Shown piece by piece: positions 59,731 through 64,000 of a DNA stretch of 64,000 nucleotides. The position numbers were made by a program, and so were the translations under genes. The notes under the pieces were generated by a model, which had not been told where the DNA came from, made no database searches, and saw only the letters and a list, made by a program, of their open reading frames with translations. The DNA is from Acidobacteriota bacterium. GTDB lineage: Bacteria > Acidobacteriota > Terriglobia > Terriglobales > SCQP01. Positions within the stretch are counted from its first letter, which is position 1, and each line of letters starts with the position of its first letter. The DNA is taken from the NCBI GenBank assembly GCA_021789895.1, contig JAJYIU010000004.1, forward strand, positions 1 through 64,000. The letters are read 5' to 3'.

Positions 59731-59817
59731 TGGTGCCGCAGAAGGGACTCGAACCCCCACTCCGTTGCCGGAACATGGACCTGAACCATGCGCGTCTGCC
59801 AATTCCGCCACTGCGGC
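59731..59817 (-). tRNA. trnL: tRNA-Leu, anticodon CAG
   Basis: On the minus strand the gene begins GCCGCAGTGGCGGAATTGGC and ends with an encoded CCA (59731-59733). Acceptor arms GCCGCAG / CTGCGGC pair fully. The anticodon stem is CATGG/CCATG around TTCAGGT, giving CAG. The variable arm is long, as in Leu tRNAs, and GGTTCGAGTCC forms the T loop. Confidence 0.95.
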
Positions 59818-60423: not shown

Positions 60424-61731
60424 ATGACCACCGCCCCGCTCGCGCTCCTTCCGGCTCGCAATCTTGCCGGCGCCTTGCGGCCGCCCGGTGATAAATCCAT
60501 CTCCCATCGCTATGCCCTGCTCTCCGCCCTGGCCGCGGGGCGCTCCCGGCTGTCGCACTTCTCCACCGGCGCCGATTGCCGCAGCACGCTCGCCTGCATG
60601 GCCGCGCTCGGCGCCCGCGTGCGCTGGGAAGACGAAACCACGGTTGCGATCGAAGGCAGAGGATTGCGCGGCCTCCAGGCGCCCGCCGCCGCGCTCGATG
60701 CCGGCAACTCCGGCACCACCATCCGTCTGCTTTCCGGCATCCTCGCGGCGCAGCCCTTCGCCGCCCGCATCGGCGGCGATGCTTCGCTTTCGCGCCGGCC
60801 GATGCGGCGCGTGATCGAGCCGCTCGCCTCCATGGGCGCCCAAATCGCCGCCGCCGATGGATGCCCGCCGCTGGCATTCTCCCCCGCCGCCGGCGGCCTG
60901 CGCCCGCTGCATTACCGGCTGCCGGTCGCCAGCGCCCAGGTCAAAAGCGCCCTTCTGCTCGCCGCCCTCTACGCCGCCGGCGAAACCGTGATTGAAGAGC
61001 CGCTGCCCACCCGCGATCACACCGAGCTGGCGCTCAACGAGTGCGGCGTGACGCTGGCGCGCCGCCGCCGCTCCATCGCCCTCGCCGGCCCCGCCCGCGA
61101 CTGGCCCGGCCGCGATTTCCGCATCCCCGGCGACCCCAGCTCCGCCGCTTTCTTCCTCTGCGCCGCCGCCCTCTTCCCCGAGGCCAACCTGCTGATCGAG
61201 GAAGTCTCGCTCAACCCCACCCGTACCGCCTTGCTCGATCTGCTGCGCCGCCTGGGCGCCAAGCTCAGCGTGGTCTCCGTCGAGCAGCGCGGCGGCGAGC
61301 TCTGCGGCAGCCTGCAATGCGGCGGCAGCCAGGGCGGGCTTGCCGGCGGCGACATCGCCGGTGCCGAAACCGTGGCCCTGATTGACGAAATCCCCATCCT
61401 CGCCGTGCTCGCCACCGCCTGCCGCGGCGGATTGCGCTTTCGCGATGCCGCCGAACTGCGCGTCAAGGAAAGCGACCGCATCGCCGCCATCGCCCGCAAC
61501 CTGCGCGCCCTGGGCGCCGAATGCGAGGAATTCCCCGATGGCCTCTACGTTCCCGGGCCCCAGACGCTGCGTGGCGCCCGCCTCGAAAGCTGCGGCGATC
61601 ACCGCATCGCCATGGCCTTCGCCATCGCCGCCCTGCGCGCCGATGGCCCTTCCGAGCTCGACGATCCCGGCTGCGCCGCCATCTCCTATCCCGAATTTTT
61701 CCCCCTGCTCGAAAAACTCGTCGAGCGTTGA
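60424..61731 (+). CDS. aroA: 3-phosphoshikimate 1-carboxyvinyltransferase (EPSP synthase)
   Basis: 435 residues. LRPPGDKSISHRYALLSALA starts the fold, LDAGNSGTTIRLLSG and LSRRPMRRVIEPLASMGAQI follow, VASAQVKSALLLAALYAAGE and FRIPGDPSSAAFFLCAAALF are in the first and second domains, and RFRDAAELRVKESDRIAAIA and DHRIAMAFAIAALRADG end it. The GNSGT motif, rather than GNAGTAMR, places it near the class II type. It makes EPSP for aromatic amino acids. It starts 25 bases after rnpB, so the two may be linked transcriptionally. Confidence 0.95.
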   Translation: MTTAPLALLPARNLAGALRPPGDKSISHRYALLSALAAGRSRLSHFSTGADCRSTLACMAALGARVRWEDETTVAIEGRGLRGLQAPAAALDAGNSGTTIRLLSGILAAQPFAARIGGDASLSRRPMRRVIEPLASMGAQIAAADGCPPLAFSPAAGGLRPLHYRLPVASAQVKSALLLAALYAAGETVIEEPLPTRDHTELALNECGVTLARRRRSIALAGPARDWPGRDFRIPGDPSSAAFFLCAAALFPEANLLIEEVSLNPTRTALLDLLRRLGAKLSVVSVEQRGGELCGSLQCGGSQGGLAGGDIAGAETVALIDEIPILAVLATACRGGLRFRDAAELRVKESDRIAAIARNLRALGAECEEFPDGLYVPGPQTLRGARLESCGDHRIAMAFAIAALRADGPSELDDPGCAAISYPEFFPLLEKLVER

Positions 61732-61949: not shown

Positions 61950-61978
61950 TTGACGGATTTTTCGCGGAATCTTAAAAA
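61950..61978 (+). promoter_or_regulatory. Promoter candidate in front of the repeat array
   Basis: TTGACG (61950-61955), a 17-base spacer and TAAAAA (61973-61978) give a predicted start near 61985, upstream of the hairpin array and pointing into it. The 200 bases between aroA and this point are AT-rich for the window and have no gene. Confidence 0.5.
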
Positions 61979-62128
61979 CGTGAGCGAATTCCGAGAGAAC
62001 TTTCCGGAATGCAAACGGCGGCAACCCGATTCTGAGGGACGCGGCGCCGGCGGCTTCCAGCAGGAAGCCGAACCCGGATCGCCGCAACCGGAGGGAAGGT
62101 GGCGCTGGACGCGTGACGGAAGCCGCTC

Positions 62129-62920
62129 GGGGTTCAGTGAATCCCGGAAGACGGGCAAGTTCCGGTTGGCTGGAACTGCTTAGCTCAAGTTCAGGCCGCC
62201 CGTGGAAGAAATGAAGCGGGCCGAGGCGGAGCGAGGGCGTCTGAGGTGAAGGCTGGTCGAGAACGAATACGGTCAGCCGGGATTCACTGAATCCCGAGAT
62301 GGTTGCGGATTTCTTCTCTTGGCGGCAGCTCTCCACGCCAAGTTCGGTCGCGCCCGCGGCTGGCAACGGTTACGGGCGAAGGCCGGATGAGGCGACCAGG
62401 CGAACCGCTGGGGGAAAGAAAAGCTCGTATCGTTCGGGGTTCGCCGAGCCCCAGGGGCAGCCAGGAATCTTCCCGGTTCTGCCCGTCTGGAAGCTTCAAG
62501 CCGCATCACTGGCGGGTCGCCGGCAGCAGCCGGAAGGGCCGGCCGGAGGGTGAGCGAGAAGGCTTGGGAACGGACAGGGTCGAGGCAAGGCCCGGTTCAC
62601 CTGGGGCTCAGCGAACTCCGAATGGATGAGCGTCGGGCCGGTTGGCGGTGCAGCAGGCATTCCAAGCGGCAGCTCGCAACGGTCAAACCCCACCAGGGCG
62701 CGGCCGCGGCGGGCGGCGAGGAACTCAGACTCACCGCTGGTTGAGTCCGGTATCGCAATCGGGGATTCAGAAAATCCCGGGAGGCTGGAGCTTCCCGGTT
62801 GGCGGCAAATAGAAAGTCCGAGCCGCGTCGTTGATCGGAACTTCGGTTCCGGTAAGCAGGCAAGGCAAGGATCCGCGGTTAGCCGCCGGCCGAGGAAAGC
62901 TCAAGTCGCCCGGGATTTTC
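62129..62920. repeat. Array of five about 155-bp hairpin-led repeats (candidate structured RNA)
   Basis: Hairpins of the form GGGRTTC-N3-GARYCCC start at 62129, 62279, 62436, 62603 and 62762, spaced 150, 157, 167 and 159 bases. In four units CCGGTT lies 33-37 bases after the hairpin start and in all five a CAAGCCGC-like block lies 57-63 bases after it. The stems vary with pair-preserving changes (GGGATTC/GAATCCC against GGGGTTC/GAGCCCC). The spacings are not multiples of three and no frame is kept across units, so it is not coding. A plus-strand promoter candidate precedes it. A weak sixth unit may start near 61965. Identity unknown. Confidence 0.6.
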
Positions 62921-63088
62921 ATTTTTCGCCGCCGCCGCCGGCCTGGGATTGCCGCTTCTCCGCCCGCCGCCGCTCCTCCCCTTCCTCCGCCGCGCGCTTC
63001 GCCCACAATTTCCGTGCGCCCGCGTCCTTGCGGCCCCTGCCATCTCCTCTATCATGGGTGGGAAGGAACCGGACTTTTTCTATCGGGA

Positions 63089-64000
63089 ATGCGCGCCTGC
63101 TCTCACCCTGACTCCGCCGCCAGCGCCCCCGCACTCGGCGCGCCCCCTCCCGCCCTCCCGCTCCCTGCCTCCCGCCGCCGCTGGCGCGTCGCCGGGCTTT
63201 CCGCCGCGCTGCTGCTGATCGCCGCCCTGCCGGCTTCTGCCCAATCGCCGTCGCCGTCGCCGGCCCTGTCGCGCGCTCCCGCGCGCGCCCCCGCCGCGCC
63301 GGCCCCCGTTCGCGCGCCCCTCGTCGTCGCCATCTCGGTGCAGCCGGCGCCCACGCGCGCGGAAAGCGATTTTCTCCCGCTGGTAGCGCAGAGAATCGGC
63401 CGGCCGCTCGATCCGGCAGCGGTGCGCCGCAGCATCCAGCGCCTGTTCGCCACCGGCGTTTTTGCCGATATTGCCGCGGTCGAGCAGCCGGCCCCCGGCG
63501 GCATCCGGCTCCGCTTCCAAACCCGCCCCAATTTTTTCATCGGCGAGGTGCGGGTATTGAACGCCCCCGATCCGCCCAGCGATGTCGAGCTCGCCGACGT
63601 CAGCGGATTGCAGTTGGGCCAGCTCTTCACTCGCGCCCGCCTGCAGCAGGCGCTCGGCCGCATGCGCCAGCGCCTGGCGGGCTACGACTACCACCAGCCC
63701 AGCATCCGGTCGGAACTGGCCATGCGTCCCCATCGCGCCCTGGTCTTGCTCAGCTTTCTGGTGCAAGCCGGCCCGCTGGCGCGTCTGGGCAAGGTTGCAT
63801 TTCACGGCGGCGCGCCTTTTACCGCGGCGCAGTTGCTGCATGCCGCCCGCTTGCATGCCGGCCGGCCGCTGCCGCAGTCCAGCCTGCGCGACGCTCTCGA
63901 CCGCCTGCATCGCTTCTATGCCAGGCACGGGCGCCTGGCGGCGGTCATACGGCTGCGAACGCATTACCAGCCCGCTGGCAACCGGCTCGATCTGCAATTC
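63089..64000 (+). CDS. POTRA-domain outer-membrane protein, BamA/TamA type (truncated by window end)
   Basis: The frame from ATG 63089 is open to the end of the window (304 residues visible). A basic start and hydrophobic segment VAGLSAALLLIAALPASAQ are a signal peptide. A Pro/Ala linker is followed by POTRA-like repeats: DPAAVRRSIQRLFATGVFAD, IGEVRVLNAPDPPSDVELAD, LARLGKVAFHGGAPFTAAQL with the helix DALDRLHRFYARHGRLAAVI. The beta-barrel would lie beyond the window. Outer-membrane assembly or translocation is the likely role. No strong ribosome site precedes the ATG, so the exact start is uncertain. Confidence 0.7.
   Translation, partial: MRACSHPDSAASAPALGAPPPALPLPASRRRWRVAGLSAALLLIAALPASAQSPSPSPALSRAPARAPAAPAPVRAPLVVAISVQPAPTRAESDFLPLVAQRIGRPLDPAAVRRSIQRLFATGVFADIAAVEQPAPGGIRLRFQTRPNFFIGEVRVLNAPDPPSDVELADVSGLQLGQLFTRARLQQALGRMRQRLAGYDYHQPSIRSELAMRPHRALVLLSFLVQAGPLARLGKVAFHGGAPFTAAQLLHAARLHAGRPLPQSSLRDALDRLHRFYARHGRLAAVIRLRTHYQPAGNRLDLQF

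Follow-up and report, generated by a model that had tools for sequence, protein, structure and literature searches.

What is encoded by the array of palindromic repeats in the ~1.35-kb gap between aroA (EPSP synthase, stop at 61731) and an outer-membrane gene of the Omp85/POTRA type (ATG at 63089)? The window, the whole stretch of 64,000 nucleotides that was analysed, also carries a class A RNase P RNA (RF00010, 59980–60399, forward strand) and a tRNA-Leu (CAG; 59731–59817, reverse strand) just upstream of aroA. The Omp85/POTRA assignment was checked with Pfam on the orthologue from the L002 genome. A preliminary description had placed palindromes at 62129, 62279, 62436, 62603 and 62762, with CCGGTTGG-like and CAAGCCG-like blocks in the units. 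All five starts are exact, and both blocks are present. Stems of this kind (GG...CC 17-mers) occur five times in 62001–62940, whereas 40 dinucleotide shuffles of this region contain 0.6 on average and no more than 2. The longest uninterrupted helix there measures 22 bp; in the shuffles it averages 13.8 bp and reaches 20 bp at most. The array is therefore real and lies at the sites given, but it is larger than was described and runs from ~61980 to ~62926. We conclude with high confidence that 61981–62926 encodes a free-standing, structured noncoding RNA of ~940 nt, belonging to a family that is unlisted in Rfam 15 and found in one acidobacterial order.

The predicted RNA (~940–950 nt, 61981–62926, forward strand) is delimited by its folding score and by conservation. 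The region folds with −516.7 kcal/mol and a z-score of −12.8, while the opposite strand gives −4.7 and the adjacent aroA sequence −0.7; a slightly longer stretch gives −13.3. Homologous arrays, to which the preliminary description had tied the standing of the element, are indeed found in related genomes. L002, from the same genus and at the same locus, is 83% identical to the window; L003 with L009, from another genus, is 68% identical; L004 is a partial relative. The proposed promoter pointing into the array is present as a consensus match, TTGACG (61950–61955), N17 and TAAAAA (61973–61978) on the forward strand. This candidate and the AAATAAAGTTGCAAAAAAA that precedes it are kept in L002 and L003, the two relatives that reach upstream; in L003 the spacing or the −10 element is slightly altered, and AAATAAAGTTGCAAAAAAA differs by one base. 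The segment CGAATTCCGAGAG just 3′ of the promoter is strictly conserved in the window, L002 and L003. At the other end, the putative terminator strand CCCGGGATTTTC, followed by ATTTTT (62909–62926, forward strand), makes 12 of 12 pairs with 62770–62781 in the window. In the relatives this helix has 10 of 12 pairs by an ungapped count, and the fifth unit there has a one-base insertion. A terminator-like end is kept in the relatives that reach the 3′ end.

The units do repeat; however, the true repeated motif is an inner module and not the leading hairpin. A wobble-rich helix, CCGGUUGGC/GCYGGUCGAG, is common to the 17 unit copies and contains two adjacent U·G pairs that are invariant. The module is made of the P2 strands CCGGUUGGC/GCUGGUCGAG, an internal loop around CCRAGC.../...GCRAGG that is present in the 17 copies, and an apical hairpin that is variable among them. 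Closing strands GAAUCCC and GGGAUUC link the modules into longer domains.

A covariance model built from the 17 module copies of the window's lineage alone (R1) detects modules in 88 of the order's 298 genomes. Almost all of these belong to another family, and the E-values go down to 1.7e-7. At the loci inspected, many of these matches are tandem pairs spaced ~145–165 bp apart. Because R1 had seen none of these loci, its matches are out-of-sample evidence of homology. A refined model trained on both families (R2) finds the module in 130 of 397 genomes, representing 47 of 80 genera, and most carriers have two or four modules, corresponding to one or two genes per genome. In a phylum sample of 396 genomes, R2 gives no match outside the order. 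In the window, R2 places the five module cores on the forward strand at 62159–62263, 62312–62418, 62470–62586 (the most divergent), 62635–62747 and 62792–62896, with E-values of 3.4e-10, 1.2e-14, 7.1e-12, 5.8e-11 and 9.0e-15, all five being members of its training set. Within the window's family, R2 finds the RNA in genera g1 and g4 only and not in g2, g3, g5 and g6. The RNA is missing from many genera of the order and is thus dispensable there. A genome-wide scan for the exact palindrome yields two true carriers, besides seven isolated sites that resemble chance occurrences.

The common form of the RNA is ~335 nt long and contains two modules, with a separate long hairpin (a rod) for each, and the five-module array of the window's lineage is a longer form of this widespread RNA. 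From 5′ to 3′, the two-module gene has a TTGAC-type promoter ending in TAAAA, CGTTCTTTGACA, module 1, the linker GGCAAGATAG and module 2. The latter is closed by AGAGTCCCGAGG/CCTCGGGACTCT and followed by a T-rich run, so that CCTCGGGACTCT and the T-rich run give the same ending as in the window. The transcript would start near CTCGTTCTTTG. A site of the TTGA(C/T)-N-(G)TAAAA type lies at the same distance from the RNA in all 36 full-length two-module relatives. The 5′ end of two-module RNAs, GTTCTTTGACA(A/G) (for example at L114:6176), resembles the rrn boxA antitermination element. This is a resemblance only, since these bases also form pairs with CAAAGGC within the RNA. Three matches to the pattern that were inspected outside the RNA are not obvious rRNA leaders, and a 16S search in six genomes gave no match. 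An Acido-Lenti-1 RNA (RF01687) lies at L032:25–70, ~1.5 kb upstream of one two-module RNA.

Covariation was evaluated on 32 full-length two-module RNAs with an RNAalifold consensus of 97 pairs. In this consensus 97.9% of the cells are paired, and 36 of the 97 pairs are altered on both sides. Cells changed on both sides number 169, against 47.5 (s.d. 7.4) after shuffling, and none of 500 shuffles reaches 169; the consensus structure comes from the alignment on which it is evaluated, and the shuffles take no account of phylogeny, but the margin is large. When the partners are slid by 1–3 columns, such cells number at most 36. Some two-module RNAs have folds that are just modestly more stable than those of their shuffles (z of −1.5 and −1.7). 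A conserved fold with compensatory changes is observed in both the two-module and the five-module forms, and the RNA is a member of the general class of free-standing structured noncoding RNAs. The preliminary suggestion of a repeated structured RNA holds.

In the five-module RNA, palindromes are located where each unit was said to start with a hairpin, but these are mainly junctions of two long-range helices. Each palindrome (GGGAUUC-N3-GAAUCCC) joins a 3′ closing strand to the 5′ closing strand that comes next. All five junctions are on the forward strand. The junction of unit 1 (62126–62147) makes 22 bp with that of unit 2 (62277–62298), and 22 of 22 positions are paired in three species. 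The junction of unit 3 (62430–62455) pairs with that of unit 4 (62600–62625) in helices of 13 and 10 bp, fully paired in three species. In this pair the changes are compensatory, the strands being GAGCCCC/GGGGCTC, GAGCTCC/GGAGCTC and GAGTCCC/GGGACTC in the three species, and together with the two-module RNAs they bear out the pairing-preserving stem changes noticed earlier. The junction of unit 5 (62762–62781) is divided. Its 5′ arm (62762–62768) pairs with the strand GAATTCC at the RNA 5′ end (61986–61992, forward strand), and its 3′ arm (62770–62781) pairs with the terminator strand at 62909–62920. The minimum-energy fold and the three-species consensus both contain the pairings of units 1 and 2, of units 3 and 4, and of the unit 5 3′ arm with the terminator strand; the pairing of the unit 5 5′ arm with the RNA 5′ end is seen in the three-species consensus.

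As local hairpins, units 4 and 5 pair at only six of seven positions (five of seven in a relative), because their arms pair between units. Local hairpins are broken in unit 3, 4 or 5 of one or other species, while the helices between units 1 and 2 and between units 3 and 4 stay fully paired. With other arm pairings penalised, the paired topology is better than simple rods by 24–32 kcal/mol and better than local hairpins by 48–57 kcal/mol in three species, and the local-hairpin model is the least stable topology in all three. The five-module RNA could alternatively fold as simple tandem rods, since the 5′ end strand, extended to GAATTCCGAG, also pairs perfectly with the unit 1 5′ arm CTCGGGGTTC. 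In the window both 5′-end pairings are complete, and L002 and L003 have them unchanged. The fold also transfers between species. When a fold computed from the window only was imposed on the 68%-identical relative, 74% of the positions paired, with 41 double changes kept and 28 broken, against 31–47% paired and 14–22 double changes kept in slid controls.

The neighbouring genes and their strands vary among loci, and only an oligopeptide ABC ATPase, an SPFH protein and a putative Ig-domain protein are loosely shared. In the second genus the RNA adjoins an AIM24-family gene. Four genomes carry two copies whose similarity (78–84%) is confined to ~420–470 bp, that is to the promoter plus the RNA. 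The varying neighbours and this limited similarity indicate a stand-alone gene that acts, if at all, in trans. With its own predicted promoter and terminator and no linkage to a single gene, it has the makeup of a noncoding RNA gene. In a fifth within-genome pair, contigs L119 and L120 of G066 both end within near-identical copies of the RNA (98.8% over the part covered), so assemblies can break at the gene and counts of its copies may be too low. The Omp85/POTRA gene was not found downstream of aroA in the other genera checked, and hence this locus offers no clean empty site. Plasmids and phages gave no match by blastn with one query each, and viral contigs gave none in two exact motif scans, searches that distant forms could escape.

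No Rfam 15 family matches the RNA in the window or at 18 loci at the gathering cut-off, and permissive searches return eukaryotic or weak chance matches only. The earlier remark that no known RNA family was recognised is in agreement with this, there being no credible Rfam 15 match. No description of the RNA was found in the open-access literature, subscription papers lying outside this search. SRP RNA (RF00169) does not overlap the array and sits elsewhere in the genome (G000:C54). The tRNA-like ends and tag frame of a tmRNA were not found with ARAGORN. The array does not match 6S RNA (RF00013) even at an E-value of 10 and is not the 6S gene of the genome. Like 6S RNA, the new RNA is rod-like and free-standing; however, in two-module carriers 6S has a gene of its own, and the new rods have no large central bubble. 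The Rfam 6S model matches 0 of 14 genomes of the window's family and 27 of 27 sampled genomes of the sister family, and in the window's family 6S RNA is either very diverged or lost. The CsrB/RsmZ decoys share with the new RNA repeated modules resembling binding sites, an independent gene and one or two copies per genome. Their repeated element is a GGA loop, whereas the new module is large and structured. Of the order's 298 genomes, only 2 have CsrA and 296, including that of the window, lack it; the RNA is therefore not a CsrA sponge. OLE, ROOL and GOLLD are likewise free-standing RNAs of bacteria that are large and highly structured and whose function is unclear. The new RNA has no sequence homology to them in the Rfam searches and differs in giving no Rfam match at a useful score, in being tandem copies of one module, and in its restriction to one acidobacterial order in the samples, with no phage or plasmid matches. 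Acido-1 (RF01686) and Acido-Lenti-1 are also acidobacterial RNAs, discovered through comparative genomics (PMC2864571), but cmscan shows no overlap of either with the array.

As to function, we tentatively favour a multivalent RNA, a reading that we hold to be possible rather than probable. The RNA would be transcribed and then act in trans, each module may bind one copy of a protein or one face of an oligomer, and the whole would be a scaffold or decoy with a capacity set by module number. The occurrence of the same module in two or five copies and the invariant wobble helix and loop residues are consistent with such multivalency; no co-occurrence test found a partner protein. The main alternative to a protein scaffold or decoy is an RNA-only or catalytic assembly, which we consider doubtful. 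Here rods and complementary junctions would pack or pair between molecules with no need of a protein, or the RNA would be a ribozyme; this is unlikely. The long coaxial helices, the palindromic junctions with their potential for pairing inside one molecule or between two, and the GCAA apical loops of most two-module RNAs fit it, and OLE, ROOL and GOLLD set a precedent by forming RNA-only multimeric complexes (PMC12286853), but the palindromic junctions are missing from the two-module form. Unlikely, too, is the broader proposal of a new modular class of large RNA, in which palindromic junctions would switch register or join molecules and an RNA-only or catalytic machine would scale by modules.

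Long perfect helices would suit RNase III, and the RNA might be a precursor cut by this or other enzymes into small RNAs that pair with targets, of the Hfq or antisense type. Hfq occurs in 297 of the order's 298 genomes, but genomes that lack the RNA have it just as often, which makes it uninformative, and conservation is highest in helices and internal loops and not in an exposed seed; we regard this origin as distinctly unlikely. (Most g9 and g14 genomes have one Hfq match and the others usually two to four, so that the paralogue number varies by lineage.) That the RNA is a decoy of RNA polymerase like 6S, with DNA mimicked by each rod, is improbable. The rods (~150–165 nt) are near 6S in size, and the window's family has no Rfam-detectable 6S in any of its 14 genomes, yet the four genera of that family without the new RNA lack it as well, and five two-module carriers (G019, G020, G024, G034 and G040) also have a normal 6S. 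The missing bubble and the lack of a 6S match also count against this decoy. We give hardly any credence to degenerate, non-functional repeats derived from REP elements or transposons. Palindromic units repeated in an intergenic gap and a patchy distribution would fit them, but compensatory changes, a conserved promoter and terminator, strand-specific folding and 47 genera at a fixed two-module length would not. Equally remote is a cis-regulatory leader of the Omp85/POTRA gene. The array has the same orientation as this gene, but its terminator-like end lies ~160 bases upstream of the start codon, and relatives adjoin unrelated genes in either orientation, among them the AIM24-family gene.

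RNA families this large, conserved and broad, extending over 47 genera of one acidobacterial order, are uncommon, and this one adds a family that is currently missed by Rfam-based annotation. The invariant residues, the duplicate genes and a carrier with a single-contig genome (G063) make its function testable. Most carriers have two modules and one lineage has five, which amounts to a natural experiment in module number.
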